DNA from: Floccularia luteovirens
Lineage: Eukaryota > Basidiomycota > Agaricomycetes > Agaricales > Squamanitaceae
Reading direction: 5' to 3'
Length of the DNA stretch: 64,000 bases
Assembly: GCA_009739215.1 (NCBI GenBank)
Contig: VSJF01000011.1
Location: forward strand, 1,178,001 to 1,242,000
The notes below the pieces were generated by a model. That model did not search any database. It was given only the letters and a program-made list of their open reading frames with translations, and had not been told where the DNA came from. The position numbers and the translations under genes are program-made. This document shows positions 13,883 through 59,400 of this stretch, one piece after another (the first letter of the stretch is position 1; every line of letters starts with the position of its first letter).

Positions 13883-16800
13883 TTACCCGCGTCGTGCACG
13901 ATTTCGTCTCCTTTGTGGTGTTTCCGGACTTGGTGCATGACGCATCCTCCTACAGACAGAAACATATCAATTTTAACCCAACCAGAACCATATTTGTCAA
14001 AAACACACTTTGCACCCTTCTTTTTGGTGTGGCGATAACAGGAACAGCAAATTCAGCTTCGGGGGTTGAGGCGTTTGAAGTATCACTTGACTCGGATTCT
14101 TCCTCTTCCTCTTCCTCTTCTTGCGATCTAAGCATACATGTCAAAAACAGTTTCTACGTTCCAGAGAATGGAACCAACTCAAGTTGAGGAGTATTTTTCG
14201 ACTTCGACCGTTGTTGTCGACTGGGTTGCTTTGCGCCTCGAGTATTACTTTTTCGCGTTCTTGGTTTCTCGGTCACTGGCGGAGTCGGGGAGCTAGCATA
14301 TATTTTCAGTCTGAGAAGCTCTATAATAAGGGTCAACACACCTTGGTCGGCTTTCATCACTAGAGAGTCCACTAGGATCGTCCTCACTACAGATGAGCAA
14401 TGAACATTAACCGATATCCAACCGCAAGAAACATCATCCTAACCTAGCTTGTTCATGGTCTGTCACATCTTTGACAGGTGAAGACGACACAACCCGTGCG
14501 TCAACGCCATCTTCTGGGATATCAACTGCAATACGGTTATATATTAACTGGATTTCTTCGTCTTGATACAGATGTTCATCTAGATTTTGCAACTCTTGCT
14601 CGAATTGTTTGAAGAAACGTGTTTTGATCCGTTCAAATATTTTGCTGATAGCTGAGTTCTCGAAAGGGCGTTGCTATCGACGAGACAAAAAGTAAACGCA
14701 AGGACTACAGCTACAATGGTTAGAATGATGACATACATCCTCATGGTGGCTTAGCAGAATACTAAGCTTATGGATAGACTGGCGGTCGAGGTCACCAGGG
14801 ATCTGGATCTGTCCAAGGAACTGGCAGAGCATTTTCTGATTATCATCTGCTCGCAGTCCGCAGGTAAGATGTGCCATAATTTTTAAAACGTAGCCATAAC
14901 TTACCAGAACGATCGGAATCATAAAGAGCGACGAGGATCTCAATAGCGACATCGACTTGCGATTGTTTAGATCGCTTCGCATTGTCGTTATTTCTGAATC
15001 TGGGTTGTGAAAATCAAAGAGCAAGATAAATTCTGGAGGTCATACATTGCAACCAGTTGAGAAGGATCAATCCAACTGATCATTAACGACCCGAATTGAT
15101 ATGGTAGAATCATTTCTTGGTCTTCATCCCGTTCTTCATACATCTTTGTCATCAAATCAAAGGTAGGCATGAAGATCTATTGATAAGTGAGTTACATCAA
15201 TCATGCCAGGGACGAACGAAGAAAGAAACTAACAGATTGCATCCGGCTTTGATTGTCCGAAGATGAATAGCAATATGCTGGGAAAAAGTACGATAGACAT
15301 TGTCTCAACTCATGGTTATCCGATGTTACTGGCGAGATGTACGTCAAAGACAAGGCGGAAAGGACCTATGATAACAGGGTAAATGCGATGGATAAGAGGT
15401 ATAGTAAAATATTACCCTGGGATCTGTGATTACTCCTGATAGAAGCAATTTTGATAAGCCGGTACATATAACGGCTTGAGCAGAAACAGATTCTTCGGTT
15501 TCAAGGGTTTGCAATAAAAAGTCAATTATCCTTTTTGACTAAGGAGGTTTAGGAGTGTGCTCTGTGGCAAACAATAAATATAACGCACTATTTCCTCTGA
15601 ACGTCCAAGAAATTCTTGAACATATACAAGTAAGATATCGAAGATAATTTGTAGCACATCAACTTTCAACTCCTCAGGTGCAGTTTGCACTTGACTGAGG
15701 AATAACTGGAAGGAGTTCAAGGCCATATTCTAGGGCACACTGAGATGATCCATTTTGACAATTTAAAAAGCTATTCACCTTAGCAATAAGGCAACATAAG
15801 CCAAGGGACAGAAGTGATTTTTGTCGTATCCCAAGTTCTTTTCGTTTCACAGAGGGAATGATGAGGTCAGCGAGAACCCCTTGCAAAGTCGAGTTATCTT
15901 CAAAGTCCTATAAAGAAAAAAATTAAAAATTCAAAAAACCCAATACAAAATAACATACTCCATTGACACGCTTCAACATTGCGATACATAGCATTAAACA
16001 TCTGATGTCTATCAGGTCTGCTTCCATACGCTCTTCCTTTGTCATCATTTCGCGCTGTTTCTGGCGAAGAACTGAAGATTCTTTTATTGTAGCCTGTGTG
16101 ACATCGGATTGGGTGTCATAATTCTGTAAATTTCTTTAGCCAATCGACCATGTCATCTAAGTTGTATGTCGTTACCGGCGCAATGCCACCTTGGTTGTCT
16201 TCACCATCTCTCAGTTCAATGATTATCTCCACGACTACACGGACAAGGTCACGCTCTGATGGCATGATTTCTTTAAGAATGTCAAGGCATCTCTCGATGA
16301 GTCCTGGGGGCAACTGTGGATGTCCAAGCATATTTCCTGAGAAGGGACCAATAGTCACAACGTTAATCCTGCAAAATGAGGTCACTTACTGACGACAGAA
16401 AATATCTTTCGTCTTCCTATTTCATCCATATAATCCAGTTTCGTAGCTATACGTAACATTTCTCCGACTATGGCTTCCTTTCTCGCTAGTTCCTCTTCAA
16501 GTTCTTCAGGATCATCTGCGCCATCTTGATAATTAGTATGTCTTGCATTTTCATATTGCTGCAAGACGTCCAGTAAGGACGTTGTAAGCCTCTTGAACAT
16601 AGAATGCGAAAGCCGTCACCACAGGCAGTGACGCAGCTTCTAACACAGCCTGGTGATCCTTGTTGATACAGTCCTCGATAAAAACTGCGAGCAAGGACCA
16701 CTGATTCCGGAAGATAAGTTCTTCCAATAATCGTCTTGGGAAGCTGGATCAACATGCATAATCCAACCTGCAGGAAATCCACCCACCAGAAAAGGTGAAT

Positions 16801-18094
16801 ACGTCTCGTAAATCAGATCTTGTGACAAATACCGACAAGTACCTGCATCGACTGCCACCTGATTCTCCAGGTCCCACCACGTCGAACAAGACCAGAAAAT
16901 CGTATGAAATGCATACATAAGGCCCCCGTCATCACCTATCCATCCAAGCTCCTCTTCTCCCGCAGGTTCTGCTAAAATCATATCGAACCAACTAGTAACA
17001 AGCTTCCCAGCAGCCATTCTTACCGCAGGCTCTCTATCACCAAGGCCAGTCCCTGATAATCTTTTCTCTCTGAAAAATGGATAGTTGTCTAGGATGAATC
17101 TTATTGGCTAGGATGACGCTAGAATATACTAGTTTGCGCAGTAAAGGATCAGCATCACGCGTGCGGCTTAATACATGATCTAAAGTTGACGCAACAAGGG
17201 GTATGTTGAGTAATGCGCTGCGTCGTACCTCTCTGCGCAGTGTAAAGTCAGGTCCAATTGGGATAAGAATCTCCACTCACGCAGCAGGGTCATAGCAAAG
17301 GACATCAAGGCAGGACCTCCAAAATTGATTGTTCTCCTGTGCTGACGTCGTCTGGGTCTTCACTCCCAATGAGTTTTGATAGAGCAATAACGGCGAGCGC
17401 CCTGATGAAGGGTTCTTTGTCACAAATTCGTTCTAACAAGCTTTCGCGAAGAACCTCGTAGGTGTCTTCGCTGTTCTCGGTAAGTACTAAGATAATGAAT
17501 CTGACCTAATTTAGCACTTGCTCAAGTTCACCAAGATATGACATCATCTCGGATATTATATGTACGCATCGATATCTTGTTATCTTGTTCTTGGCAAGAA
17601 AGCCCTTGCAACAACCATCGCAGCAGTCGTGAAGTGAATCTTGAGACGAACGTTTCTTCTTCCTCATCAATGTTATCAGACTTGGCTTTCTCAGCTGCGT
17701 CTAGAGAACATGTGAGAATCGGACAACATTCCAGCATGGCCAACGCAGCACAATTAATAATGCCTCATGCGGACTGCGGACATTATAGTGAACTGCGCAC
17801 CTTTCTCATTGCAGAATTTGACATATGATCCAATGAACCTTACGATACGATCTGCAGCTACAACTCCTTTCTTCACAACGAGAACCCGGTTAACCATGTC
17901 AATACACACATTCCCAAACTCCTGCTCTCCGGATAAAACCTACTCCAGATTTCTTGGGTCTTGTGAGACACGCTACTTTGGAATGTAACTTGTACAGTGC
18001 GACACAAGTTTTTCTTGTGATTCGCCAAGGAAAACTGAGCTTGTTCGAATATGGCACCGATGTTTTCTCGAAGGGTATCCGTAGTTGGGGCCAT
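13883..18094 (-). CDS. cnd3: Condensin subunit 3 (CAP-G/Ycg1/Cnd3), many +1 breaks in the 5' half
   Basis: HEAT-repeat condensin subunit, which binds DNA with CAP-H for mitotic chromosome compaction. Recognisable order: N-terminal NHKKN..ALYKLHSKVA, VLVVKKGVVAADRIVRFIGS, RRSALLNIPL, DADPLLRKLVYSSVI, MAAGKLVTSWFD, FDVVGPGES, AVLEAASLPVVTAFAFYVQE, SPVTSDNHELRQCLSYFFPA, then an acidic, Ser-rich tail with TPKRR. The 3' exons (about 13.95-16.1 kb) join cleanly at short introns. In the 5' half the conserved protein can be followed only by skipping single extra bases near 16118, 16574, 16680, 16711, 16831, 16842, 16858, 16896, 16907, 17048, 17309, 17572, 17930 and 18004. One more may lie at the last splice junction. 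The stop at 13883 assumes the last exon reads RMRHAPSPETPQ. As written the gene would not make full-length protein. Family assignment is firm; exact structure is not. Confidence 0.85.
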
Positions 18095-19200: not shown

Positions 19201-19205
19201 GGCAA

Positions 19206-19905: not shown

Positions 19906-22641
<2,736 letters not shown>

Positions 22642-24247
22642 GTCGTCTATCTTATCCTATAGAGTGTCTTGAGCTTGGTGTTCTACGTTCTGGTAGAATT
22701 TTATAATTACGTATAGTGTCTTGTTATCTTAAGAGTCGTCTTTCCTGCCCTTCTGCCCTATTCTTTTGGGCCCAAAACAGCGCATTATCTGCCTGACAAT
22801 GCAATTGAGTCTTATATAAAATAACCGCAAATAAAGGTCACAGTTGCCAAATTCTCTCACTGACTTGCAGGCTCCTAAAACCAGCCGCTCACTGCGTTCT
22901 ATGCTTACTAATGAAGTTCGGTTTCATCCGAACGCCAAATAAACAAATCTAGTTTGAAAACGAATGCAGTGAGCTTCGTTTGAACACAAGATTTGTTTGT
23001 TTGGTTCACGGGTACTTTAAGGCCGAACTTCATAGCAATTATAGAACGCAGTGAGAGGGCTGGTTTTAGGAACCTGACTGACTTGCAGCCTTACATAAAT
23101 AAACTTGTAAACTGTACGGATCCAGATGAGGCATTTAGGATTGAGGCATTTAACAAGACAGTTTGTATCAATGTCAAGACACATCAAACCGGGATCCATA
23201 ATTAAAACATCCGTTGATTCTCTGAACGAGGCGTCAACCCAAAAATATTCGAGCGCCTTTCAGACCCAACTTGGTCGGGAGTTATGGTTGTTATCTTTAG
23301 GCGTTGTGGCGCATATGCAAGTCCAAATGTCGTGATAACACCTCCCTCGCGGTGCGGCCCCTACTGTGTATTACAAACAATATAAAAAGCTTACGCAAGT
23401 TAACTCCCTTTATGCTTTTCTACTTTTTTTTTGCGTCAAGGATTATCCTCGGATCTTCAAATTTCAACAAATATGGACGACACTCCATCTTATCATTGAA
23501 GAGATGCAAATATCCCCGTCTTTCATTTCGGTAGCGAGAGATGAGAGACTTGTGGTAAGTCAGTACATATGTTAGTGTAAACCTTCTCTCTGCATTGGTG
23601 AATGTTCTAATTATCCCAGATTGATCCGATCTTCCGAGTTTACACACATTCTGAAATCTGAAGAGGTGGGATTGTTATGTTTCACTTGAAGTGTTTGAAT
23701 GTAGGTCCGGCCAATCAATGAAAGTTTAATTTATATATACACTCATGCTAACATCCGGCGATAGGAAGACACAATTCTGGCCAGATATCATGGAACTACA
23801 GGTAATGTGATCCAAATTTAGAGTTTCGCTTCAGAATGAGAGTGACCTTATCTAGTCTCTTGGCCCACACTGTTCTTGGCTATGTTATTTTCACATGTAG
23901 ATGCTCTGGATTCATTACCCGCAAGCGAATACTATGTATAGAAGACAAGCTTCCTTTAAACTGGAGGTTAACAACGTATATCTTACTTCGTGCCTAAATG
24001 CTTGTCAACGTACCTCAGATACGCAAGAGTATAAATATCATCCCATAAACCAGCACCACGGGATGTCAGATTACCCCTCACACGATTGCGACAGATATCG
24101 CAATCGTTTCTATTCCAGCGATTGGGAAGAAGACTTGCATACCGCATGATCCCTCCTCATTCAGTTTTCGAAGATGCTTTAAATACTAACCTGGTGTCCT
24201 CCTTACCTCCCTGCACAGACACTGGATAGTGCTGTTCACCCCTCAAG
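22642..24247. other. Intergenic region carrying a MITE
   Basis: 1.6 kb between sec23 and the first OPT gene. It contains the inverted-repeat element at 22868-23076. Open frames at 23.1-24.15 kb are short and match no family. The right end, with TTTAAATA near 24178, probably holds the OPT promoter. Confidence 0.5.
22868..23076. mobile_element. MITE, 209 bases, with 9-base target-site duplication
   Basis: The left end CAGGCTCCTAAAACCAGCC at 22868 and the right end, whose reverse complement reads CAGGTTCCTAAAACCAGCC, form terminal inverted repeats. The arms stay similar for about 90 bases inward (both contain CTCACTGCGTTCTAT, GAAGTTCGG and AACAAATCT), so most of the element can fold on itself. 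ACTGACTTG abuts both ends (22859-22867 and 23077-23085), a 9-base duplication typical of Mutator-like elements; 8 of these bases with CAGG ends would also suit hAT. No transposase is encoded. Confidence 0.85.
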
Positions 24248-27200
24248 ATGACCTCACAGGAGAAGGATGAATCCTATGCAACTGGGCTCTCGAGTATCCA
24301 ATATGATAATGGGTCCCAAGACGAAAAGGCTCTGGACCGAAAGTCAGATAGCGTCGATATCGTGGACGAAAAGGGTCTCTCGGACACCTCTTCGGATCTC
24401 GATGGGGTGGTTATGCTTAATGGCGAGCCAGTCGTCACTACCGGAAAGGACGTTTCTCGCTTCGTCGTTGATGTCAGAGACGATGGAGATTTCGCCCTAA
24501 CGTTTAGGTCTATCACTCTTGGGACTGTCTTTGCCGGTCTAGGAGCGGCTTTATGTCAAGTTGGTATTCCCGATAACAACTATCACACATTTCCTAATTG
24601 TTATGCGTTTAGATCTACCTTTTTAAACCAGTCCAGATGACTGTCTCGACAGTTTTTCTGCTCCTTTTGATTTTTTCAGCCGGTAATGCCTGGGCAGCAT
24701 TCTTCCCTCGACGTACATGGGCTAAGGGTGTGCTCTCGTTCCTCGGGCCTGTCTTCCATTTCATCAATCCTGGGCCATTCACTATCAAGGAGGTAAATTA
24801 TTCCATTGTCGATGTCGAGAACTTCTTTTTCACATTGTTTCTAGCATGCGGTGGCTTCCCTCGTTGCTTCTACAGCAGCCGGTGGTAGTTCTGCGGTCCA
24901 AAATTTCGCGGTACAACGGGTAAGTCTTCTTGGTCACCCCCACCGTCACATTGGTTCGACCGATAATTTCTACAGCTCTATTATGATACACATGTCGGCG
25001 CTACGACTGCCATTCTTGCAACCTTCTCAACAGCCTGCTTTGGGTGAGTAAGTAATTTTTATGGTTGCTCCATTATTTATCACCTATCGTCAGTTATGGT
25101 CTCGTTGGGCTGTTACGTCCTTTGACCGTTTACCCTTCTGAAATGGTGTACTGGAGTGTAAGTGGCGTTTTCTTTAAGTGGTAATCATCCATCTAATTCG
25201 ACATACAGAACTTGCCCACCGTGTCCGTTTTCCAAGGTAGGGATCCTCTGGCAACCACACGTCTTATTCTTTGCTGACACATGCTACTTATAGCTCTTCA
25301 CTTTGACACGACAGCAAACCATAAGCGTGTCAAATTGTTCTGGTCGGCTTTTGTGGGGATGTTCTGCTACGAAGTCATCCCTGCTTATATTTTCCCACTT
25401 CTTAATGGTGTGAATATATTTTGCTTGGCATCGCAAAAGGCATCGCAGAACACCATCGATATTTTCACGAATCTGTTTGGAGGAACGGACGGAAACGAAG
25501 GTCTTGGTTTGTTGAGTATATCCTTTGATTGGCAATACATCGGCTCTACGTGGGTCACCAATTATTTATAGCTTATCACCCACGTGCTCAAATAATGTGC
25601 TCCACAGTTTTATGAGTTTACCTCTTATTCAACAAGGTACTTACATATATCTGATAACCTAGTAAAGTTTCGCCACTAACTATATACATTTTGACAGCGA
25701 ACTCATGGATAGGATACACCTTATGTTATGTCTCCATAATGGCGATATACTATTCCAACACATGGGGTGTATGTTCTCATATTCACTCATGAAGTTAATC
25801 AATACTAACTGCTATCCGTTCGGTCTAGTCTCTTGCATTCCCCATGCTTTCGACTTCATTGTTCTCTGCAAATGGGTCGATTTACCACCAGTCCGCTGTA
25901 TTTGGAACCACATTCACACTCAACCAAACCGCACTCGACGAAGTTGGACTTCCAGCTTTGACAGGTTCGAATGCTTGGTCTAATTTGACCGCTAACCTTG
26001 CAGTAAGGTTTGCCATGCTATCTTTTCTCTGTTAGATGCTCAATGCCTTGCAACCTAGATTGGCGGTTTAGTTGCACATGTGCTCTTGTTCTGGGGGCCA
26101 TACGCTCGAGATTCTTTCAAGCTCGCGTATAACAGGACACAACCTGATCCCCATTACCAAGTTAGTCGATCTTACCTATGTAATGAAGGTGTTCCTGATT
26201 ATGCTTCATGATAGGCGATGAAGAAATACAAAGAAGCACCTTGGTGGTGGTATGTTATACTACTGGTATTGTCATTCTTTGCCGGTGAGTAGTGCATCGC
26301 TAGGCAAAAATCTAAGAATTCACAATGACTTTCTTTACAGGCTTGATTGTGGTTTTCAAGGGTCAAACCACACTTCCCTGGTGGTCATATATCGTCGCCT
26401 TGTTGGTCGGTGCTTTCATCACGGTAAGTGGCTCTCTTAAACCGAATGTCATATATGAAGCACCAGGACTGACGACGCAATACTAGCCATTCTCAACTCT
26501 TTTGTTTGCTCGAATGGGTAACGGAATCGCGACCAACCAACTGATGAAAATGGTAGCAGGCGCGATTAACCCAGGAAAACCCGTTGCTAACCTTTATGTA
26601 TTGCAAAATCCACATTTCTTCGGGACTTACAACTAATTTACCTGTGCGCAGTTCTCCATGTGGAGCCATGATGTTGTTTCGACATCTAATTAACTTGGCA
26701 GGGGATCTTAAGATGGGGCAATATTTAAAGATACCTCCCCGTGTGATGTTTCTTACACAAGTATGGGGGACTATTCTCGGTAAGGAAACCCTCGTTCTGT
26801 TTGCGTCCGAGATCTAATATTGGTGATCGAAGGTGCGATTATCAATTACGGTGAGTTTAGATAGTACACGGATGTACTTCGCAGCAGTTTGATTGACTGC
26901 GGATTAGTTGTGATGATCTCGGTCGTGGATTCTCAACGGGATATACTGCTTAGTCCGACGGGTACTAATGTATGGAGTGGACAAGTGCCTCAAAGTTTGA
27001 ACAGCGCAGCTGTAACCTGGTCCCTGGCAAAGGAACTTTACGGGAAAAGTGGTCCATACTTCATCATTCCGTTGAGTTTGTTTATTGGAATGGTACCCAC
27101 ATTCTTCCAGTGGTTGATATGGAAGGTACCGTGACGCTTTTTACTCGTCACTAAACATAGCATTTATAGTATTTTTCTAGCGTTGGCCAGTAATTGGGCC

Positions 27201-27635
27201 GGTCCATGTTGACACGATTATGTTGCCAATAATCTATATGGTTAGTCCTTGGCGATTGTATTCGGACCAAACCCCATTAAAAAGTGCTTTTTAGTATTCC
27301 GCATGGATGTCCGTCGGTGTAAACTCGACGATCACGTCCAGCATTATTGTTGGTCTTATTTCTCAACTCTGGTTGAGGAAAGTACCACCCTGGATGGTAC
27401 AAGAAATATAATTATATTCTCGGTGGCGCCCTCGACGGCGGTGCCCAGGTCATGATATTCGTATTGTCTTTCGCAGTATTTGGTGCTTCCGGTGTCGAGA
27501 GACCTTTCCCCACCGTAAGCTCCATATCCTACTTATCAATTCGTTTGACATACTAATTGTTCTCTTGAAAAGTGGGCAGGAAACCCTGGCAAAGGAAACG
27601 TCGACTATTGTAATGGAAATGGAGCTCTGGATTAA
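24248..27635 (+). CDS. Oligopeptide transporter, OPT family (copy 1), with two +1 breaks
   Basis: Many-exon gene for an OPT-family proton-coupled oligopeptide transporter of the plasma membrane. An acidic cytoplasmic N-terminus (about 100 residues, DVSRFVVDVRDDGDFALTFR) precedes repeated membrane helices. OPT hallmarks: FFPRRTWA, NPGPFTIKEHA, STAAGGSSAVQNFAVQRLYY, LLRPLTVYPSEMVYW, GMFCYEVIPAYIFPLLNG, TNLFGGTDGNEGLGLLSISF, ALNQ-type loop, KYKEAPWWWYV, LKMGQYLKIPPRVMFLTQVW, NSAAVTWSLAKELYG, and the C-terminal NPGKGNVDYCNGNGALD. At least a dozen short introns join in frame. One extra base at 26688-26689 (after VVSTS) and one at 27382 (after LRK) break the frame; the tandem copy, intact at both places, shows the expected reading. 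No in-frame stop otherwise. Confidence 0.9.
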
Positions 27636-29358: not shown

Positions 29359-32300
29359 ATGGCCTCCTGAGACCTGGCAGAATCTCCTATTAAGGATTCA
29401 AAAGCTGACTTTGATGTTTCCAGCGATGAAAAAGTTCTCCATCACTCGGACAGCATCGAGATTGCGGATGAAAAAGGACTCTCTGACACCTCTTCAGACC
29501 TCGATGATGTGGTCATGCTCAATGGCGAACCCATTGTTACTACTGGAAAAGATGTATCACGTTTCGTGGTTGACATCAGAGACGATGAAGATGCTGCATT
29601 AACATTCAGGTCTATCACTCTTGGAACCGTCTTTGCTGGGCTAGGGGCAACCTCATTCCAGGTTGGTATTAAACTTAATTGAACGGAATGTATCTCTGAT
29701 TATTTGTCTTCAGATCTACAATTTTAAGCCTATCCAAATGAGCGTCTCGACTGTCTTCCTGTTGCTCCTGATCTTCACAGCCGGAAATGTCTGGGCAGCT
29801 GTGGTTCCCAGGCGTTCTTGGGCTATTGGGAGGCTCTCCTTCCTCGGACCTTGCTTCCACTTCCTCAATCCCGGACCGTTTACTATCAAGGAGGTAAGAT
29901 TTATCCATTTCAATGTCACCTTCTATCAATAGCTCAACGACGATTATAGCATGCAGTAGCTTCTCTTGTTGCATCCACAGCAGCTGGAGGAAGTTCTGCA
30001 GTCCAAAACTTCGCGGTACAACGGGTATGTCAACCGCCTACTGTCATACTATGAGTATATTTAAGGTAAAGTTCAAAAGCTCTACTATGACACTCATGTC
30101 GGGGCTATCACTTCTGTACTGGCAACTTTCTCAAAGGCTTGCTTTGGGTAAGCCGAGGGCCTATATTACCTTTTCTTCCCTTGCTCATTTGACCCTAGGT
30201 ATGGTCTTGTCGGACTGCTACGTCCCTTGACTGTTTACCCCTCTGAGATGGTGTATTGGGGTGTAAGTGCTGTGCACCTGGATGTTGTGACTCTTCGTCT
30301 TAATCTCTTCGTATAGAATTTACCTACTGTATCGGTCTTCCAAGGTGGGCAGTTCCCGATAACGCATATATTCCACTCCAATTTCAGCCCTCCATTTCGA
30401 CAATGCAGCAAACCACAAACGTGTCAAGCTGTTTTGGTATTCGTTCGTGGGGATGTTCTGTTACGAAATCATCCCTGCATACATTTTCCCACTTCTTAAC
30501 GGTATCAACATATTCTGTTTGGCGTCACAAAAGGCATCGCAGAATACCATCGATATTTTCACCAACCTTTTCGGTGGCACGGACGGAAATGAAGGTCTTG
30601 GTTTGTTCAGTATATCCTTTGATTGGTAATATATCGGTTCTACGTAAGTGTGATGTATTTATCTATAACATCTGCTGTACACTCACACACCAAATCACCG
30701 GAAAGTTATATGAGTTTGCCTTTGGTTCAACAAGGTATTTAAATAATTCAATCGTTACTTCATTGCTCAAACATTGCATTTCCACAGCTAACACATGGAT
30801 CGGAATTTTTGTCTGTTACATTGCCATCATGGGAATATACTATTCCAACGTCTGGAACGTGCGTCTTTAGGTATAAGTTCTGATATCAATCTGATGGACT
30901 TCTTTTTAATGCGATAGTCTCTTGCATTCCCAATGCTTTCGACCTCCCTATTCTCTCAGAACGGTTCTATATTTGATCAATCTGCTGTTTTTGGTTCAAC
31001 GTTTGCTCTCAATCAAACCGCATTGAACGAAGTAGGACTTCCCGCTCTAACGGGTTCAAACGCCTGGAACAACTTGACAGCAAATCTTGCAGTAGGCTTT
31101 ACATACTCCTCGTGTTATTCATTGCTAAGCATCACGCCACCTAGATTGGCGGTTTGATTGCACATGTATTCTTATTTTGGGGACCATATGCCAAAGAGTC
31201 TTTCAAGCTCGCGTACAATGGAACGCAACCTGACCCTCATTACCGGGTCTGTTACCTCCTCATATGCAATGAGTAGGGCGCTGACTTTGAGTATCGTAAT
31301 AGGCAATGAAGAAATACAAGAAAGCGCCATGGTGGTGGTATGTGATACTTCTCGTTTTGTCCTTCATTGCTGGTGAGTATGCAGTTGAGACTGTTTGAAT
31401 ATAGACTTACTGAATTACAAACAGGTTTGATTGTGGTATTGAAGGGCCAAACAACTCTCCCCTGGTGGTCATACCTCGTCGCTTTGATATTGGGTGGTTT
31501 CGTCACAGTATGTTGATTTATAAAATTTTATTGAAAAGCTTTAATTAAATCATAACTCACCAGCCATTCTCAACTCTTCTATTCGCATGAATGGGTAGCG
31601 GAGTCGATACATCCCAGATAATGAAAATGGTCGCAGGTGCGATTAACCCAGGACGACCGGTGGCTAATCTTTATGTAAAGAGACATCATGTCGTAGGTAC
31701 ATATCTGAGCTGACAGACATGTGTATAGTTCTCCATGTGGAGCCACGACGTTGTCTCGACATCTATCAACCTAGCTGGTGACCTGAAAATGGGACAATAC
31801 CTAAAGATCCCGCCTCGTGTGATGTTCCTTACACAGGTGTGGGGTACCATTCTTGGTATGGAAATCTTGATCCCTTTTGCGACCGAGATCTAATATTGGT
31901 ACATTGGTATTTGTAGGTGCTGTTATTAACTACGGTGCGTGAAAATAGCCTCCAGATCCATATCAACAGCAATTTGACTGACTGCGGATTAGTTGTTATG
32001 ATTTCTGTTGTGGATGCTCAGCGGGACGTACTGCTTAGCCCAACCGGTACCAATGTATGGAGTGGACAAGTGCCTCAAGGTTTGAACAGCGCAGCCGTAA
32101 CCTGGTCCTTGGCAAAACAACTTTATGGACCTAACGGCCCATACTTCATGATCCCGATGAGTCTAATTGTTGGAATGGTCCCGACTTTCTTCCAGTGGCT
32201 AATTTGGAAGGTGAAGGGTTTTACCATTTCATTGTTGTAAAGCCCAGCTCATTTTGAGTTCACTTATAGCGTTGGCCGAAGATTGGACCTGTCGAAGTAG

Positions 32301-32717
32301 ATAGTATCTTGTTACCAATTATTTATTCGGTTAGTATCTCGAATCGTATCAGTGATGACTTGGTCATAAAAGTGCTATAGTACTCTGCATGGATGTCCGT
32401 TGGTGTCAACTCAACGATCACGTCCAGCATTATTGTTGGTCTTATTTCCCAACTCTGGTTGCGGAAATATCACCCCGGATGGTACAAGAAATATAATTAT
32501 ATTCTTGGCGGTGCCCTCGACGGTGGTGCTCAGGTCATGATTTTCCTTTTGTCCTTTGCTGTCTTTGGTGCATCTGGTGTTGAAAGGGACTTCCCAACTG
32601 TAAGTCCTTCTTTTACCTCTGTACTCAATAGGATGGGTTAATAATTTCTAATAGTGGGCAGGGAACCCGGGTGTAGGAAATGTCGACTACTGTAATGGGA
32701 ATGGTGCCTTGGATTGA
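29359..32717 (+). pseudogene. Oligopeptide transporter, OPT family (copy 2), three in-frame stops
   Basis: Tandem paralogue of the upstream OPT gene with the same exon-intron layout and about 80 percent similar protein. All hallmarks are present (NPGPFTIKE, AAGGSSAVQNFAVQR, IIPAYIFPLLNG, KMGQYLKIPPRV, NPGVGNVDYCNGNGALD). Unlike copy 1 it has no one-base frame break. It has three stop codons in the reading frame: TGA at codon 4 (29368-29370), TAA at 30627-30629 where copy 1 has CAA (Gln), and TGA at 31588-31590 where copy 1 has CGA (Arg). The last two fit C-to-T change. Probably a recent pseudogene; the frame is otherwise preserved and splice sites remain intact, so selection has only lately relaxed, or stop readthrough or consensus error is involved. 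Confidence 0.8.
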
Positions 32718-34059: not shown

Positions 34060-34426
34060 AAATAGACCAAGATTGAGTGCACGCAACTTATGATGTCTAT
34101 AGTCCATCCACTGTATCCTTGTTTTTATAATAACTTAATTTGTATTCTTCCAGCCATTCAATGACGTTTGTGGTATACTGATATACTGTTTCGTGTCTGA
34201 TTAGTCAAATACCTGAAGGTAAATCAGTCATTTATTGCCTCTTTGAGACAGAATCTTCAGGCTTTCTAACATCAATCGGAAGGGGAAGTCTACAGCTTGT
34301 GGGTCAGAGAGTATGATGATATATGGGATTTACACTGACATAGCCCGACAGACCAGACTGCACTCCTGATAATACAGTGAGAAGCAAGTCAGATAAAAAT
34401 ATATCACAATATTGACTTACCGCATA

Positions 34427-37940: not shown

Positions 37941-38206
37941 AGGGATTGTTTGGCACGGAGGATAATGGAAAACAAAGAAATTCCCAGGGTCGCCGGAAAT
38001 ACTGCTTATATTGATGATGTCAAGAAATTTGTGTTTTGTACAATATCCGTGATGATTTCGAACTCTTCACATATGTGCGGGTCAACATCTTTACAATCAC
38101 CTCTGCGGACTCTCGGAACCCAGCCACCGGACAAATAAAAGCAAAGGTCTGCAATGCTGTCGCTTCGTGTTTTGCGCATGTTCCTCTAAAGCAGCATCGT
38201 CTCTCA

Positions 38207-40982
38207 ATGACTTTCTCAATGTCGCCGCAAAGAGTTGCGGACGCAGCTAACATCTCTCCGTTCCCTCCTTACGCTAATTGGTCCTCCCAGACGTCCGGGA
38301 AATAGCAAATCTGACAATGCTGACAGGTCGCGTACCGGCCAGCATAGGGGGAGGAAGCAAAAAGGCAGAACGAGGCAAGAAAGAAGCGGCAGGCCGGAAG
38401 AAGACATAAGATTCACTTTTGCCCCCAAACCCATCCATAACATGATGAATGGTCGTCGTAGGCCCAGGCAGGGCCACCAGGACCGAGCAAACAATGATGG
38501 TATGTCAAGTTGATCAAGTCGTAGTGGGTATCACATTTGAATGCTGAAAAATTCGCTTCAGACGATCCCCCTCCTCTATACGAGGAAACGATATCGCTAC
38601 CTCCAGTTTCTGCGTGCCCAAGTACTACAGCTTTGCCAGACCAAGTAGCACCTCCAAGGGTGCTAAATGCTGTGTCGAATAACGTGACATCTCGGGATCC
38701 CCGATCCTCTACACCTCAAGAATCGGAGCACGATGATAATTATAGCGCTGGCTCTGGTGACTCTATAGATATAATTGGTGTCGACGAGCCACCTCTTTGC
38801 GGTTCCAGACTTGAAGAAGAAATAAGGAGGGATTGGCTACAGCGGCGTGGGATCGAATTTCCTACACCTTCGATAAGCGCAAAACACACCGCAAGCAAAG
38901 TTACTCCTTCAACTATAACTCGCGACAAGGATGGAGGCCGCGGCCTGGAGGTCAAGGTGCCCAGCAGCAAGGGAACCGTATCAGCACATTTTGAATCTTC
39001 CACCCCAACATCAGTAAAGAAAAAGCACCTATCTTTATCACCCCTGCGAACCCTTTTCCCTGCACGATCTTCCAATGCGCAGGACCGTGCAGTTTCAGCT
39101 GACCCTTCCCCTGTGTCTCCATACTCTTCTCGTTCCATAAGCTTCTTTCGGAGTTCCGCCTCACTGTCAACCTCTTCCATCCTCAAGTTTCCTTTATTAT
39201 CCACTTCAGTGTCGAATACTTCAGGTAGACGGGATAGTTTCATGTCGCGTAAACTCTTCTCCTTCAAAGGAAAAGATAGGGAATCGTTGGACTCCTGGGA
39301 ATGTCTAGATGCGGATGATCAGTCTCCTAGTCTTATGTCAGCTGTCGAAACCATAACGGACGCTTCATCCCCCACAACAGATAGTTCTCCGACATGTGCT
39401 TTTGGCTCTCAAAATTCAGAAACCTTGAGTACACGTACCAGTCCCACTCATAGCGCTCGTTCGAATGATAGCCACCAACCCCAAGGCGCTTTTCCAGCAG
39501 TTAATCCTACTCCTTTCATTGGCCGGCCTGTCAGACACCGTGTTACACCCATCCAAACTACTCAGACGAACGATAATGCTGACGCAGAACTACCCTCTCC
39601 TGATTCAGACTTCCAATTATGATTCACCCTTAACACCCGTACGCGCAAAAGTAGCGGATACTACCACTGGGTCTCCTTCGTCGATTAAGTCGAGAACTTC
39701 TCCTGGTTTGCCGTTGACAGCCATCACTTGGAAAACAGAGGCTGGCATGTCTAGTCGTTCAACAGCTATCCTCCAGCAAGCTTTAGATACGCCATTACCA
39801 CAGACCCCTGTGAAACAAACAGTGTTTGATTATGCATCTCTCAACCCAACTACTCCTACGACTTTACATGCACCATCGCCTTCAACGCCTACAGCAGGTC
39901 ATCATGCCCAAGTGTTCAGCGGAGTTCTAAACAACCTTCCAAATTTAGAAGCCTCGCGTTCGAATGTTATTAAAGACATACCAACTCAAGATTCAAGCGG
40001 TGCTGCTATGCATGTTCGCTCTTCCCAGTTCTTTGCCCCACAGAACAATGCCCCTTCACACTCTTCTCCAAATCCCATTATGTCAGATTCCTCACCATCA
40101 CGTCACCATTACCCCGGAAGACCCTTGCCACGCCCGCCAGGTGTTTCATCCGCTACCACGGTAGATTCAGCAGGCGGAACTTCTCATGATAATATTCATG
40201 TGGATAATTCGAGGCTTCCTGATGTTAGAATGTCGGACCCCCATTGCCCAGAAGGTCTGCTCATCGACTTAGATGATAACTTCTTAACAGGATATTCAAC
40301 CCCTGAAACATCGCTTCCCCACACAGGTGAAGGAACGCGATTTTTCGCACACCTTCCGACGGCTTTTTCGTCTGCAGACGAGTTTTTTGACTCAATAGCC
40401 AATGAGCCCGACCCATGCATTTCCCAACCTAGTCCTCCCAACCAGAGACTCCCCACTGAACCGCTACCATCTTCCACGGGTGGATCATCGGAAGTCACTG
40501 ATCTCGACCTTCTGGTTTCCCGTTTGGAACACGAACGTCAGAGTGTTCCAGACTATGAAGTGAGTTTTCAGCGGGTGGTGGGCCGAAACTTCAATTGATT
40601 ACACTACACGGTCAGACTCTGTCCCTCATTTCAGAGTTTCTTGGGCCCGCAAATCGAACAATATCTCAAATTAACAATCCGGGAAACTCGGCTAATTCAT
40701 TGTCGGAAGGGGTAGAAAAGACCAATATTACATTTATAGGGAGGGTTGAACTCGAGCGACGGCGGGTTATGAAGGATGGACGGGTGAAATTGAAGTTGTC
40801 TCTACTTGAAGTTCCTGTTGATCGGTGTGGCATATGTCTTTCGCAGTTTAAAGCTGGGGAATTAGCAGGATTGAAGTTCCGTCTGTCGACATTCATTTCA
40901 TGAGAATTGTCTGAGGAAATGGATCCTCAGGAATAAAACGTGTCCTATGTGTAGGATTTCTTTAGATGTGGACGATTCATAG
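38207..40982 (+). CDS. RING-H2 finger protein with long disordered N-terminus, three +1 breaks
   Basis: Large Ser/Pro/Thr-rich protein ending in a RING-H2 finger, so a candidate E3 ubiquitin ligase. N-terminus MTFSMSPQRVADAANISPFP, then SNADRSRTG-type basic low complexity, PPPLYEETISLPPVS, a long disordered middle, and LDLLVSRLEHERQSVPDYE joined across a 53-base intron to TLSLISEFLGPANRTI. The RING is CGIC..(14)..CRHSFHENC..(10)..CPMC, ending ISLDVDDS. Three single extra bases must be skipped: near 38297 (after QTSG), at 39617 (after SDFQ) and at 40880 (after GLKF); the last lies inside the RING, so the zinc ligands appear only in the corrected frame. Substrates unknown. Start choice is tentative because it depends on the first break. 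Confidence 0.75.
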
Positions 40983-41583: not shown

Positions 41584-41926
41584 TGGTAGACGTTGCAATT
41601 AAAGTTATATAGAGGATTTGTGGAAAAAAGTGTAAGAATGAGTTGCAAAAAGTGAGACCCCCTTCCAGCTAGTTCTCGTATATAAGGGTAGCGTATTGGT
41701 ATGATGTCATAGCTGGAATTGTCGTAGTTTGCTCCATCATAGCCCCCCCAAATTGTCAGTGCTCACATGTAGACTAGACCTTGGTGAGTACAGATGTACA
41801 TTGTAAACAGATACTGCTTGTACGTGGGTGGTCAGGCCTTCAGGATGTATCATACATATTCTTGGATGTTCAAATGTAGGAATTTGTTGTATTTCTGTAA
41901 GATGATAATATGATGGATTTCATGAA

Positions 41927-45305: not shown

Positions 45306-45523
45306 CTCTTATGAACCAGAAGGAATGGAGACTACTCGCCCTGGGCTCCTCTTCTGTAGATAGTATATGGATTATGTCGAATACCTAATAATATGTGTAA
45401 TTATTGCAGAACAATAGCGTTAACGATGTGATTGTTCTTTGATCGCACAAGGCCCCATGTTTGTCTTTGCTTGACCTGGTGTAATTTTGGTCCAAACAAC
45501 TTTTCATCTACCACTCTAGTGCC

Positions 45524-48500
45524 ATGGGGCGTTTCCGCGCGTATGCAAGTGACGACAGTAACAGCAGCGACGACGACGACCGCATTTCTACAGGAAAGCC
45601 TGTCCCACAAACATCGAGTGCTCAAGCGTCGAAAGGAACAAGAAAACTCTATGATGATGTTGGCGACAGTGAACTCAGCGAGAACGATTCCGGTAGCTCT
45701 GGTTCATCTTCAGAAATGGATGAAGATGAGTTGATGTTACCCCCAACGCAACGCCAAAATGAAACGCGACATCGAGGTCGAATATCACTTGGTGAGGAAG
45801 ACAACATCACATACGCGAGTGATGTTCGTGTACATGTTTCTCCACCTTCTTCATCTGGGCTACCTTCTCCACCTCGAAATCGTGTTAATGGCGATCCTTC
45901 GATAATACCTTGGGCCCAACATATTGGCGTAGATGCACAGAAAATGCACGTCATGCAAACCTCCCTATTTCGTATGCCGGAAGAAGCGGCAGCTCTGAAA
46001 GCCTTGAACCAACCAACCAAGAAACCTGTCTTACCCAAGAATATCAACCTGCGCACTCCTCTTCACACCCTCAATCGAAAACATAGTCGCGAATCTGACG
46101 GCGATGTCAGACTTGACTTTCGGGAGGTTAGCATATAGGGACACTTGGTTATAATCCGTAGTTCTCATCGTGACTATTTCTATAGCGTGCCTCATTTGCG
46201 CATGACATTGATCCTCCTGTTTACCGCCCATCACGAAAATATGCACGCGTTGAAAACTCATCCTCTCTTATAAATGGTCATGAGGGCTCTTTGGTCGATG
46301 CGGGTCTGTCATTGGGTCGCTCATTTCGTGTGAGTTGGGGACCTGGCGGGACCTTAGCTCATCTAGGTAGCATATGTGGACCAGCTTCAGCGCCGTAAGT
46401 GTCCTCCTTCCCCTTCCAGACCGGATTTTCTTCTTCATTCTACTTAACTGATTGATTTTTATAGAAGTACTTCAGCAAATATGACCATTATACATATCAC
46501 TAATGTAATAACATCTCTTACATCGCACCCCAATTTCACATCATGGGCCTCCTCCTCAACGGCCCTTTCAATAGCTACGAAACTTTTGCAACATCACCTC
46601 AGTCATACACCTATATTGCCAGATGACCTGGGAATACCCTTTGCAGATCCCCCATCACCATACACCCTAGCCCAGGACGAAAACACCGATCTTCAATAGT
46701 TCAAAAGCTCTCAACTTTGCATCGTTTTCTGCATTATTCCCAACTGCGGATACTACACATCCAGCAATAATATTCCGTCTAGGAAGTGCTCTATTCGACC
46801 CGATTGACCTACACCTTGGAGGCCAGAAAAAAAATCAGAATGTTATCTCAATCACTCCCGAAATCCGCAATCGGGTGACGCTGTTGAGAAGAAAGACTGC
46901 ACTAGGAAAATGGTTAGAGGAGTCTGTGAAACCTAGTGTGGACAGTGATTTGAGATTGAAAGCCAGCGGTTTTCGTTCTGGTGAGTCCTAATTCTGTTCA
47001 TTCCTCCCTCAGGTATCGGCGAATACATATATGCGCTCTTCTAGTAAACGTCAGTCACTGAATACTTGTATAGGAACATATATTGCAGCTGATTCAGCTT
47101 TCACTCATCTTACTGGTCATCAAGTGGAGCAAGCTTGTGCATCAGCTGGAGACGGAGGATATACAAAGCTTGCAACATTGATTGCGCAGGCAGGAGGAGA
47201 TCTATTTTTCAAAGGAAGATATCAAGTCACAACTAAGAGTATGGAAATCCGAAAAAATTGACTACGACACTAAGATCAATGATCATGGGTTGATAGGCAG
47301 GGGGGTCTGGAAAGTTTATGCACTGCTAGGCGGGTTGCCTGACGAAGGTGAAATGGACTTAGTTGACGAGGAAGACCTTTATTCTGGTCTAGACTGGAAA
47401 CGCATCTTTGGTCTATGCTTATGGTATGGTGAAGGCGTGGATGCATCTATTACCGACGTTCTCAGGGTCTACGAAGGCTTAATGCGCAACTCAGTCCACG
47501 CAGGGAGCAAGAATATCGCAAAGCCGATACCTAGTTGGGTACCAGAATTACAAAAGAAGAAAGGAATCCCCGAGGTTTCGTTGTTGTCCTGGTCAAGTAC
47601 ACCGACAAGTTACAGTTCAAATCCGCAAGTTCCAGAAGATGCTCTCTATTCTCTCATTAGAATGCATGCAGATCCATCAATCTCTCTAAAACACACACTA
47701 AACCCATTATCATTTTCCGTATCTGGTATGGATTGGGGGGTTGGTTTGTGTTGGCACTTGTATATCATTTTATCTCGAGTAATGAGGGTGCGCGATTTTG
47801 CGGATCGCGGAGACCCCGTTACACGCAAACCCAAAATTAATGGGTTTACAAATGGTATTGCAACTTCAGGAGATCACAGTAGTGATGACGAAACCATAAC
47901 CGTGAAAAACTTGGAGAGGGAAGAAGGGACGGTAGAAGGACATAGTCCAACCGCTGACTTGCTGGCAAGCAGCTATGCATTCCAACTCGAAAGCTGGGGC
48001 TTGGTCCAGGAAGCAGCGTTCGTCCTGTTGCACTTGGAAGGGAGTACTGGGTGAGTTTATTCATCAGCAACCTTACCTGAGTTGTCATGTGAATTTTGAA
48101 AACTAGGCGAGAGAAAGCGATCAAGGATCTATTATCCCGATCGGCTCCAAGATTAGATGAGTGGATGACACGCGGGATTGTCGGAAGCTTAAAGTTGCCT
48201 ATGGCTTGGGTCAACGAGGCCAAGGTACTTTGTTCAATGACATAATCTGAGGACCTGATTTATTGACCATATGGTAGGCCCTGTACTCAATGAATCAAGG
48301 CGAGATATACTCTGCGTACGAATCATATCTTCTTGCGGGATTATATCACGCTGCGCATGACCTCGCTGTGCTCGAACTTGCACCGGATGCAATTATACGA
48401 AAAGATCTACAGCTTCTGCAATCCTTGTTCGAATGCTTCAATAGTGAAGGGAGAATTGAAAAAATTCCCGGATGGTTTGTTCGCGGTAAGGTAGGTTTCA

Positions 48501-48981
48501 ACATGTTTTCCTACAAGAAAAATCAGTTGATCATTTTTTTGTTCAGGTGTTCCTGGATTATGTTCACATTATGGATGTTCTATCCAAATACAAGGAACAA
48601 TGTGACATTGAAAAAGAAGAAGGTATACATGCAGTACCTGATGCTGCACAAGCTCAAGAGGTTGAAGAAACCGTTCGCCGAATTCCGAAACTCATCGGTA
48701 TTCTGCCCGATGTACTTTATAGGACACGCCAAAGTGACATTCGCCATGCGGCTGCATTGGAGGAAATGGTTAAAGAGTTGTTATTTATGATGGAGAAGGT
48801 CAAGCCGGTTGCACTCGTGAGTGAAATACCTTTCAGTCGCAGTCCGAGAAGTAACGATTTCTCCACTATGTATCAGTCACAAGTTCAACAACCCACTTTA
48901 AGTATGGTGGATGGAGCTATCAAATTGGACCTCGTGCGTGGCACCGGGTATGCGAGATTTCTATCAAGCATCAACACATGA
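45524..48981 (+). CDS. Nup96-type nucleoporin (Nup145C), two +1 breaks
   Basis: Scaffold nucleoporin of the Y (Nup84/Nup107) complex. A Ser/Asp/Glu-rich N-terminus is followed by SFRVSWGPGGTLAHLG, the conserved entry to the Nup96 helical domain, then PEIRNRVTLLRRKTALGKWL, HLTGHQVEQACASAGDGGYT, LATLIAQAGGDLFF, RAPRLDEWM-type helices, EAKALYSMNQGEIYSAYESY, HAAHDLAVLELAPDAII and GILPDVLYRT. It begins at the Nup96 portion with its own start, so it is separate from Nup98. Single extra bases at 46697 (CAA, T, AGT; skips an in-frame TAG) and at 47214-47215 (AAA, G, GAA) must be dropped to keep the family sequence. Several short introns. Fold assignment is firm. Confidence 0.82.
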
Positions 48982-49207
48982 GCCGATCCTTCTTAGTCTC
49001 CTAATTATGATGTCTATTTATTATGGATATCTACATTGGCATAGCTCGCGCATTTATGCTTTGTTTTCTTATGACTTTTTCACATGGCATGACATTCCCA
49101 AAGAAAACCGACATATATATAACTTATTCCAGTAAAAAGCCAAACTAAAACTAGTCATAACAACACAAAGACCCATATCGTGACGATCATGAATATCTTT
49201 ACTTAGA

Positions 49208-50811
49208 TTAACCGTAAACCTTGAGCCATTGGAAATCGAAGTAAGCATTTGCAAAAGCAGAAGGGTTGTTGTTGACAAAGTCTGACCAAATGACCCAAAG
49301 TAAGGAATGCGAAGTATAATTATAGGACAAAAAGTTTTTACCTACGCAGGTTGACGGACAACCAGAATCTCCGTAAACAGCACCTGCCCAATCGCCACCT
49401 AAATAACCCAGATATGGTAAGTATCGATGCTTAATTATCCATATGATCAGGCGTGGATCATAACGTACAGAAGGTTACTGCAAAAACCAGCATGAGCAAA
49501 AAAGGGTGTCTTTGCTAAAATTGAAAGGGAGTTTACATACAGTTGATTATAATATTATGGGGACCAAAATGACTTGGGATGTTGCAAGTACTTGTTGAAG
49601 GGAAGTATGCTTGCGGCGTTCCCTATCAGGAAAAAAAATTCGGGGGATGTCAAAACTGGTGATCTTTTTTGTGGAGAATCAAGACTTCGACTCTCACCCA
49701 ATTGTCAGTGTTGACTGTAGTTGCACCATTCATTACATCATCAGGGATTTCGCTATCTGCGGCGGCTTTGGACCAGAACCAAACTTTAATGAAAGCATCC
49801 GTCCTCTCAATTGCATACCTACTTGATGTAAGCCAAAAAATCTAGATTATTTTTTTTTGATTTTTGGGTGCTCACCATCCTCCACCATTGCTATTGAAGA
49901 TAGGTCCGTAGCTTCGTGTGTCGGTCATTCTTACGCCACAACCTTGATTGTTGTTGCCAGGCGAGTCGCAGATGTTTGAGGCGGGGATGCTAGAAGAGCA
50001 GTTTAAGAGAATATTTCTTAATATATAGTTAGAAAATTCGGTACCCTGTTTCCGAACGCGAACTTGGCATTGAACAAGCCTGCCAGGAAAAGAAGTTAAC
50101 TATACTCTAATAAGCCTCTTAGTTTGTTACTTACCAGAACCTGTATGCAAAGTTACTGAATCTGGTCCTTGGTCATTCACTCCTTCCAGGATATCTATCT
50201 CGCCCTAAAAAAAATTAACTTTAATATCAAATAAATATAAGTATTGACCAACATTATTAGGCCAGTTTGCACCAACTGTCCATACGGCAGGCCAAGTTCT
50301 AGAAGAGAATATTAGGTTTAAACTGCTGGGCTACTGTCAAGATCACAGAAACTAACCCGCATCCTTGAGGCATGTGGCGCATATTGAATCTATGTAGACA
50401 GTAAGAATCTTAACAAATGCGAAATTAGATCATACTTACACCATCACGGCATTGGTGTATTGTTTGTTGGACATCAATCTGACAGAGTTTCTGCCAGGTC
50501 CACTGGGTGACAACACATTCTTGAAGTCTGAACGGACAACGAAATGGTCTCCCGAAGCAAAGGTCAAGTTCTGGCTTGCCGCAGTTGCAGCATCAACATA
50601 ATTTCTAACAAAAATTATTATGAGACAAGTCAACAACAAATGGTCTGTAACAGCGAATCACTCACACCCGGCCATGAGTAGGATCTGAAATGGATTGAAC
50701 TGAGAACGATTGCAAGAAATCACTTCCGGTGTGGCTATCAGTTTGTGAATACGTTGCCGCCAAAGCAACAGTGGCTAATGACAGAACAGAGATGAATCTT
50801 GTGAACGACAT
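49208..50811 (-). CDS. Secreted GH16 beta-glucanase, one +1 break
   Basis: Glycoside hydrolase family 16, laminarinase/beta-1,3(4)-glucanase type, acting on fungal or plant beta-glucans. Signal peptide MSFTRFISVLSLATVALA, then TYSQTDSHTGSDFLQSFSVQ, NKQYTNAVMVFNMRHMPQGC, TWPAVWTVGANWPNNGEIDI and LEGVNDQGPDSVTLHTGSG; the catalytic E-x-D-x-x-E is EIDILE. Later come GCGVRMTDTRSYGPIFNSNG, FIKVWFWSKAAADSEIPDDV, a Cys-bearing FCGDWAGAVYGDSGCPSTC and C-terminal FDFQWLKVYG. About ten short introns. One extra base near 50076-50077 must be dropped for the family pattern CSMPSSRSETG. Start is the signal-peptide ATG. Confidence 0.88.
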
Positions 50812-54500: not shown

Positions 54501-55164
<664 letters not shown>

Positions 55165-56408: not shown

Positions 56409-59400
56409 TCACATGTCACCGGGCTCATCCTCGTCATCGCTGACGACAAGGACACATCTATCGTGCGAATTGACAGGCCACATAGGAGCTGGGCGTGTAC
56501 TAAGTTGTGGGGTTGGATTGTTCTGCTTCGAAGAACTTGAGGTAGTGGGGTTTAAGGACGGCGAGTTGTCTTGGGATGTGTCACGACTACTTTCTTCCAT
56601 AGACCTATTTTACAACCAAAGGGCATACACAAAGCCGAAAATGACTCAGTCGCATGACAGCATTATTTCCAGTAAGGTTAAACCAATGGTCACGTACCGT
56701 GTTCGCTCTCGCAAAATAGGCAAGAATCCTTTCCTTCTCCTCCTTTGTTCGAGCCTGTGTCAGCTGGGCCATAAGGGTCTTACTCTCAGCGATATGCTGT
56801 TCTAAACGCCTTTGTTTGGCTGCTAATTCCAGTTTGAGATTCGACTGGAATCGTGGACCTTGATGGTGGCGTCTGAATTTTCAAAACAGATGACGGAGAT
56901 GGTTGAGGCTTCAAAGTCTCAATGGTTTGTGTGATGAAAGAAACCGCGAGGTCATCCAATGAGAATTCATGTGTGGATACGGAAACAGATGTATTCGCTT
57001 CTGTTGGAGTTCTGGGAGTTGAGGCTGGCGATGCTGAAGAGACTAAAGAGGCAGATGGATCGTTTTTAGATTCGTCATTTTTGGAATGTGTAGCAGTGTT
57101 CGGTCCGTTCAGTAAGGAAGAGGTATCACCAATTTGATCTGGGGGTTTATTCCGTGCCCTCTGGCTGCGTAAAACGAGCTGCCGAAGACGATCCTCCATC
57201 GCTTGACTATCAGCACGGTCAACCCCGTTTCCGCTCATTGCTTGCGATGAAGACGGGATGGTGTTCATGATGCCTGCTTCAGTTTTACTTTCTGAACAAT
57301 TTCCATCATAATTTGATGGAGTACTTGATGGTCTCATCTCTCCAAGTTCCAGCTTTCTTTGATTAGCGTGGCGTTCTTGGAGCTCTTTCTTGCGTTTGGC
57401 AAAACTTGGTCCAGTAGGAGGATTTTTCATCGCCCGGGGTTCGGAAGGAACGGGAGGAGAGGCAGACTTTGACATGGGAGATAATGATTGTTTGAGGGGA
57501 GTAGAGCGAGGCAGAATCGAATCTTCGACAATGTTTGGAAATTCAAGTGGGGCTGTGGTTTTACGTGTATCAAATTGACTATGCATCAAACCTCCGGACA
57601 TTTGATTGGCAAGAACAGAAGGTTTACTGAATGATGATGTGTAGTCATTGTCGCTGATAGACGCAGAATCGGGACATTTGTTAGGAAGCTGGTATTCAAC
57701 GCTGTCTTCGCCAACTTCCATATCCTCGTAATCTTTGATATTGTCCTGGGGATCTATGACCTGAGCTACGAGTGGAGAACCAGAACGGGCTCTACTGGAG
57801 GATGCTATAGACTCTCGGTTATCCTCATAGTTGTATGTGTCATCCTGGTGTAAGGGGGGCCCATAATCTGAAACCACAAAACTCTCCCATGCGCCATTGC
57901 CGGTATACTGCTGGGAGGAAACGCCTGAGGAATGTGGAGTAATTCGACTGCCTTCATGCTCCAGGCCTTTCAATCCAGGTTCCAGTCCCTTCGCCGCATA
58001 CGCAGCTTTCTGAGCAAGTTCAAATTCAAGTTTCTTCTGCTGTCTTGCTTTCGCTAACCTCGCCTTTCTCTCCTTCTTAGTTTCCTTTGGAGGCGGGACG
58101 TCCAACTCTTTGTCTTCGACGTCACCTTCAATCTCACCCTCTTCGATCTCACCCACCCCAGCACCAGCACCGACACCATCTACTCTGTACCACCAGACCT
58201 TGATAAGGTCTTCCCTCGGCTTTCCTTTGAGTTGGTGCGGCTTCAACCCGGCGTAAGACGTCCCTAGTTTTGGACTACTCCAGGCTTTCCGTGCCAACTC
58301 GGCGGTGGCAAACTCAATCAGCGCCTTTCCTGAGGGGCCGTCGATGGATAATTGTACAGGATGCGCACCGCAGGAGTTCTTACACCATGAATTGACAAAG
58401 TCCACTGAACGATGTGTCTTCGGCAACTGTTCCATGACCAGAGTGCGGGCAGGGTTAGGAACGTAACGAGTCGACTTAGCAAATACACCATGCTTGCTCT
58501 TAGGGTCCGGATCAGGTTTCATACCAATTATTTGTGGTGGAGGCTTGGGAGGTAGATTATGTAGAGGGTTCCCTTTTGTAACCTCGTCATGACTTGGAAG
58601 GGGTGTATGTCCAAGCTTAGGGATAGAGGGTGGGAGAGGATTAGGAGAAATCCACGGAATTGATGGATGGTCTAGCCTGGAGTCATTCAATGTACTTTCC
58701 GCAGCCGAGACCATAGAGGACACCCAGGAGGAAGTAGAGGGTGTAGGAATTGAGTTTTCAAGCATGCCCCAATCCCGATAGCTATTGTAATTATTGCCCA
58801 AGCCGACGGCAGGTGTGTGAGCGTGAGCAGTCAACCTGGCCATTTCACCAGCTAAAGGAAGCTCTCGTGTGTAGTGCATAACACCTCCAGGAGACCAAGA
58901 ATATGCCTCATGCAATTCTGGAAATGAATCCATACTCATCACGAATGGTAATGGTCCTGCAGGCTGCTGGTGAATATGAGTATTACCCGCTTGTTGCTCT
59001 CGTTCCAAACGTCTTCGTTTCTTCTTTGCTCTTTTGCTTTCAGGTTGGGTTTGGGATATCCGCGTCTCCAAACTCTGTCTGCTAAAAGGAGAGGTACTAG
59101 AGCTCGACATGGAATCTTGGGCGTAATCAACATCGATACTCTCTGCTCTTTTACGTTTTTCATGCAGCTCGCCGTGTTCTACAGCTTATTGTCAATAGAC
59201 GAGCCATAAAAATTATTAATGACAGACCGTCTCCGATACTAGAAGGTCGACCGGGTAGGTGATGCTGCAGGTCGAGCTGGCTTGGCTGTGCAGAAATGCT
59301 ATCATCGTTGCATAGAACTATAGGTGGAGAGTCAAATGGTTGGTTGAGTAGGACTTGGACTTCATCTTCTGAGTCGTCGACAGCAATAGGGGAAGATCTG

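Follow-up and report, generated by a model that had tools for sequence, protein, structure and literature searches.

Are the reading frames of conserved nuclear genes in the mushroom Floccularia luteovirens interrupted by single surplus bases, or do these bases exist in the assembled sequence only? The question is raised by a window of 64,000 nucleotides (contig 3, positions 1,178,001-1,242,000, in an assembly of 26,995,015 bases and 22 contigs), in which an earlier note had counted about 30 single-base gains and no losses across ten genes. We scanned this window together with 100 kb on each flank (264 kb in all). As a result, 22 surplus bases backed by proteins of relatives or by a paralogue were identified within the window (sec23, 4; cnd3, 13; OPT1, 2; GH16, 1; Nup96, at least 1; RING-H2, at least 1). 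Three more in a second cnd3 gene brought the number to 25, and supported losses in the same genes numbered zero, in agreement with the gains-only pattern that had been claimed. Five weaker sites, indicated by frames or intron phase only (Nup96 46697, RING 38297, RING 39617, RRM 56857 and Dam1 ~33750), are mostly candidates only, and one further claimed site, in cnd3, proved to be an intron. Judged from the assembled sequence, the surplus bases are very probably errors of a long-read consensus, namely single-base insertions that occur in clusters.

Proteins were aligned to the DNA with a custom aligner that allows introns as well as gains or losses of one or two bases, and that applies the same frame-shift penalty to a single gain and to a single loss. 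When gains were introduced artificially, 166 of 180 alignments returned a gain, two returned a loss and 12 missed the change; for artificial losses, 167 of 180 returned a loss, one a double gain, and 12 missed it. The aligner is unbiased, recognising gains and losses about equally well. By frame arithmetic itself a double gain and a single loss are not separable. The proteins of 30 relatives were aligned with sec23, and 40 proteins with each cnd3 copy, at the following positions:

19906 to 22641, plus strand: sec23 (COPII coat), with four surplus bases (20089, 21264, 21295 and 22279) from protein alignments.
13600 to 18094, minus strand: cnd3 copy A (condensin G subunit), whose 13 surplus bases occupy 11 places from 16580 to 18007, with none supported elsewhere; 13600 is the limit of the aligned stretch and not a mapped gene end.
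Outside the window, contig 3 ca. 1,321,170-1,325,500 (window coordinates ~143,170-147,500): cnd3 copy B, a second condensin G gene.

The four gains claimed for sec23 were reproduced at all four sites, with the same gains and no loss in each of the 30 proteins. The sec23 pieces were 93% identical to their best match, a metagenome cluster protein. One SEC23 was found in the assembly, and the sole other match to the Sec23 helical domain resembled SEC24, a name read from its translation. The argument that an essential gene cannot simply be lost is therefore sound for sec23. For cnd3 it has less force, as the same contig contains a second cnd3, also with gains, at a distance of about 125 kb.

For cnd3 copy A, the 14-15 gains claimed became 13 separate gains, at nine single and two double places. 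Nine of the 11 places were supported by 40/40 proteins, and 16859 and 16843 by 36/40. At 17934 one gain was called with 30 proteins and the frame-equivalent loss of two bases with 10. At both double places every call was a double gain, and trial scoring put the two bases 6 or more apart at one place and 14 or more at the other, so they were taken as separate gains, making 13 in all. The surplus base claimed near 16118 was rejected, as 36/40 alignments placed a 52-base intron at 16124-16175. Stray loss calls in copy A comprised one base at 15537 (1/40) and near 14030 (2/40), both in the weakly conserved C-terminal part, and two lost bases near 16136 with 1/40 proteins. The three gains of copy B were supported by 40/40, 40/40 and 36/40 proteins, with the loss of two bases called in two more at the third site; a further gain near 146,500 was called with 5/40, and losses with no more than 2/40 anywhere.

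The two cnd3 copies share 44% of residues, and by its sequence copy B is an ancient paralogue and not a recent copy. The best named relative of the copy A protein was that of Crucibulum laeve (62%). In a tree showing 120 listed of 356 homologues, copy A stood next to Crucibulum (P0121) and Cyathus (P0176), weakly supported at 0.50, within a clade of 23 supported at 0.998, and copy B fell into a group (support 0.997) with proteins from Paxillus, Hydnomerulius, Leucogyrophana and Piloderma. Of the two proteins of this kind in Piloderma croceum, P0207 is nearer copy A and P0233 nearer copy B. Copy B is a possible second CAP-G in Agaricomycetes.

The other genes of the window that bear on the question were as follows, with the OPT, Dam1 and RRM names taken from the earlier note:

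24248 to 27635, plus strand: OPT transporter copy 1 (OPT1), with two surplus bases (~26687 and 27382) against copy 2.
29359 to 32717, plus strand: OPT transporter copy 2 (OPT2), with no single-base gain in its exons against copy 1 and with apparent in-frame stops by substitution.
32910 to 34060, plus strand: putative Dam1-like gene, with one candidate surplus base near 33750, at a splice junction, from a phase argument read by eye.
36819 to 37940, plus strand: GFA-family gene, a single open frame of 373 codons.
38018 to 40981, plus strand: RING-H2 gene, with a surplus base near 40880 and candidate sites near 38297 and 39617.
45485 to 48981, plus strand: Nup96 gene, with a surplus base near 47214 and a site near 46697 indicated by frames and by an ab initio gene model.
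49205 to 50811, minus strand: GH16 laminarinase-like gene, with one surplus base at 50077.
56608 to 59185, minus strand: putative RRM-like gene, with overlapping frames near 56857.

Both gains claimed for OPT1 were recovered in a DNA-level comparison with OPT2, the exons being delimited by eye. OPT2 shows apparent C-to-T in-frame stops around positions 30627 and 31588, at codons that are sense in copy 1, and is probably a truly decayed copy. The single gain claimed for GH16 was likewise recovered in an alignment of 283 codons with the laminarinase structure 2cl2. In Nup96, for which two gains had been claimed, profile positions 2-41 matched in one frame and 40-248 in the next; an intron has no room at 47214, because one match begins on the DNA where the other stops. 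The second Nup96 site is weaker, being indicated by its frames and by a score for a direct switch of frame of 5.5 against -7.7 for the best intron. Only one of the three gains claimed for RING-H2 was backed in this way: the site near 40880 splits the finger, with the second half assigned to the next frame by profile match and the first half read by eye. Direct switch and intron scored nearly alike at 38297 (-14.7 vs -13.6), at 39617 (46.5 vs 47.7) and in the overlapping frames of the RRM-like gene at 56857 (153.2 vs 152.7). The gain claimed for Dam1 has the intron-phase argument in its favour.

The sites are clustered, as the earlier note had stated; this applies to contig 3 across the window and the 200 kb around it. 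The 11 places of cnd3 copy A fell inside 384 of 997 codons; when 11 places were set at random, 57 of 100,000 trials matched this span. No gain and no loss was found in alpha-COP (669 codons, against 9qpq) or CLF1 (591 codons, against 8c6j and in part also 9l5r), 1,260 codons on the same contig; both genes had been picked for long open frames, which favours clean genes, and NMD3 and UGGT were left out of the comparison. The five aligner-measured genes (GH16 left out) contained 20 gains in 4,086 codons. At an even rate, cnd3 copy A would be expected to hold 4.9 gains and holds 13 (P 0.0016), with 4 vs 3.7 expected for sec23, 3 vs 5.3 for copy B, 0 vs 3.3 for alpha-COP (P 0.04) and 0 vs 2.9 for CLF1 (P 0.06). 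The clustering thus follows from the excess and the span in cnd3 and from the zero counts in alpha-COP and CLF1. In the flanks, a Pfam scan covered 30 of the 60 listed open frames and two more.

The sites followed no single base kind or context. Among the 16 single-gain sites of sec23 and both cnd3 copies, five are necessarily outside runs of a single base, four are necessarily inside, and seven may be placed either way, against a background of 44-47% of bases in runs. The kind of base was fixed at six of these sites (T, 2; G, 2; A, 1; C, 1). Since all four bases occur and sites lie outside runs, slippage or homopolymer miscalls fit poorly. At 3 of 15 places the unshifted frame ran into a stop within two codons, compared with 14-19% of random positions, and 12 kinds of codon preceded the 15 places. 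In cnd3, a stop lay within two codons at 1 of 11 places (median 25 codons vs 11 at random), the reverse of the tendency in sec23 given below. Among nearly invariant columns, 9 of 514 deviated in sec23 and 12 of 253 in cnd3, three of the latter inside the cluster, so that no excess of substitutions is evident. The relatives' proteins align across the sites of sec23 and cnd3 as one chain.

Scans made without homology gave nothing firm. Nine pairs of overlapping coding-like frames were found in the 264 kb, and an intron outscored a direct switch in all nine, RING 39617 among them, though narrowly. Yet this score also favours an intron at Nup96 47214 and RING 40880, which the homology matches do not allow there; because it fails at these two homology-backed sites, the nine pairs are not usable on the matter of gains and losses, and the absence of losses therefore rests on the homology-backed sites. 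At 11734-12781 (minus strand), a pair in the +1 relation is better explained by a 52-base intron, with a sub-threshold match to the TFIIE-alpha C-terminal domain (E 0.021). At 1762-5114 (minus strand), a pair in the -1 relation is better explained by a 53-base intron than by a frame switch. In another piece of contig 3 (L029:1877-4229, minus strand), two frames in the +1 relation overlap by 347 bases, the downstream one with a Myb domain; the intron is only slightly ahead in score, and this may be a further site. An ab initio gene model was rejected as evidence, being too weak for this genome: it recovered 2 of the 25 listed sites at the strictest setting and at most 10 of 25 at best, and it called a gain at 36954 inside the open GFA frame. 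Its counts of gains/losses were 2/0 in the window and 3/0 in the flanks at the strictest setting, 7/0 and 6/2 at -7, 11/4 and 10/11 at -6, and 13/6 and 19/19 at -5. The model served for candidate finding only and led to cnd3 copy B. Tables of matches to the HSP70, actin and EF-Tu-like GTPase families were left unused, since matches given by exon do not distinguish an intron from a jump of frame.

The consensus of a long-read assembly would thus have gained single surplus bases, concentrated in short and poorly supported stretches, and the genes would be read in one frame in the organism. The DNA of the organism would lack these bases, and coverage would be thin at the sites. Consensus error, the explanation already preferred in the earlier note, is favoured because gains alone occur at the homology-backed sites, in clusters, with any kind of base and without restriction to homopolymers, beside ordinary genes on the same contig; the sites extend beyond the window, however. 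The platform was presumably one whose raw errors are mostly insertions. In PacBio continuous long reads, insertions exceed deletions. Such reads would fit best because their indels are about 15 times as frequent as substitutions and show no link to homopolymers, according to an excerpt of PMC4719071. Circular consensus reads, with 92% of errors bound to homopolymers (excerpt of PMC12007338), and nanopore reads, with deletion-rich errors (excerpt of PMC4719071), would fit less well.

Several points weigh against this explanation. It was reached from the assembly alone, and the complete absence of losses is more one-sided than expected even of PacBio raw errors. Both cnd3 copies are affected by gains. 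In sec23, a stop lay within two codons at two of four sites (median 3 codons vs 15 at random). Among all the places compared for the preceding codon, two sites have CAA-GGG in common. The nine frame pairs were not one-sided, four being in the +1 and five in the -1 relation. Errors of this kind would also be looked for in non-coding DNA; the window contained no tRNA, neither it nor two adjoining pieces gave an Rfam match, and the copies of a repeat at 22868-23076 were too divergent to reveal surplus bases.

The repeat at 22868-23076 is a short inverted-repeat element (self match 74%). Its 23 matches, which include two to itself, are spread over eight contigs, and it is probably a miniature inverted-repeat transposable element.

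The alternative that survives best, though improbable, is that the bases are real mutations and that genes in decay have acquired single extra bases in the genome itself, cnd3 copy A, with copy B as its backup, being one example. The presence of two cnd3 copies and the apparent decay of OPT2, with its in-frame stops, are in keeping with it. A decaying gene should, however, also accumulate losses, longer indels and substitutions to stop codons, and no supported loss was seen; OPT2 has stops without single-base gains in its exons, the reverse of the affected genes. Moreover, sec23 was the only SEC23 found and its pieces stay highly similar to the best match, both cnd3 copies rather than one carry gains, and slippage would have favoured runs of bases.

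Far less credible is that the surplus bases are real and that the mushroom either decodes past them in the +1 direction without a fixed motif or trims its messages, in a subset of genes that includes SEC23 and both condensin G copies. Taken separately, widespread +1 ribosomal frameshifting, in which ribosomes would skip one base at each site, is extremely unlikely. Such a system predicts gains only, in conserved genes, and two of the four sec23 sites have the stop nearby, but the preceding codons are of 12 kinds at 15 places, stops within two codons occur near the random rate, all four bases are involved and relatives align as one chain. The cnd3 copies also differ in the positions of their sites, by a reading made by eye. 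On one reference, two of the three copy B sites fell within one residue of copy A sites, on another they were 6 to 12 residues apart, and by eye from the local sequences about 4 to 12; shared positions as a sign of function were rejected, such offsets being what dense sites give by chance. With thirteen shifts in about 400 codons, hardly any product would remain at any usual efficiency, and a literature search for ribosomal frameshifting in basidiomycete nuclear genes returned no such genes in the excerpts it covered. Deletion-type RNA editing of nuclear transcripts, which would likewise give gains only, possibly clustered in some transcripts, is just as hard to credit, as all four bases would have to be stripped, unlike in the uridine-only editing of kinetoplastids, and excerpts from a search on fungal nuclear transcripts described none. 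Frameshifting and editing are both disfavoured because each needs a rule for its sites and none was found.

If the bases are artefacts, gene calls of this assembly at the affected loci, for instance one that has sec23 or cnd3 as 'lost', are not to be trusted, and frame breaks by gains only in conserved genes would be an inexpensive sign of insertion-type consensus error. If instead they are real, they would overturn the assumption of a single uninterrupted triplet frame in fungal nuclear genes and reveal non-triplet reading in a fungus.

Three known systems invite comparison. Deletion editing in kinetoplastids is mitochondrial and confined to uridine. It resembles the present case in that the DNA holds bases that must be missing from the mature message, and differs in that nuclear genes and all four bases are involved here. 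In Euplotes, as here, the frame is moved past extra bases in many genes, but an internal stop codon specifies the shift (excerpt of PMC10235951), whereas the stops in our sites are overall no nearer than chance. Errors that fragment genes in long-read assemblies are well described (excerpt of PMC12007338); its table rows for two Pseudomonas assemblies, with the platform partly given, show more deletions than insertions, unlike the pattern observed here. Residual errors of PacBio continuous long reads differ from the present sites in the lack of supported losses and in the strong clustering here, and resemble them in that single-base indels without ties to homopolymers break conserved genes (excerpt of PMC4719071).

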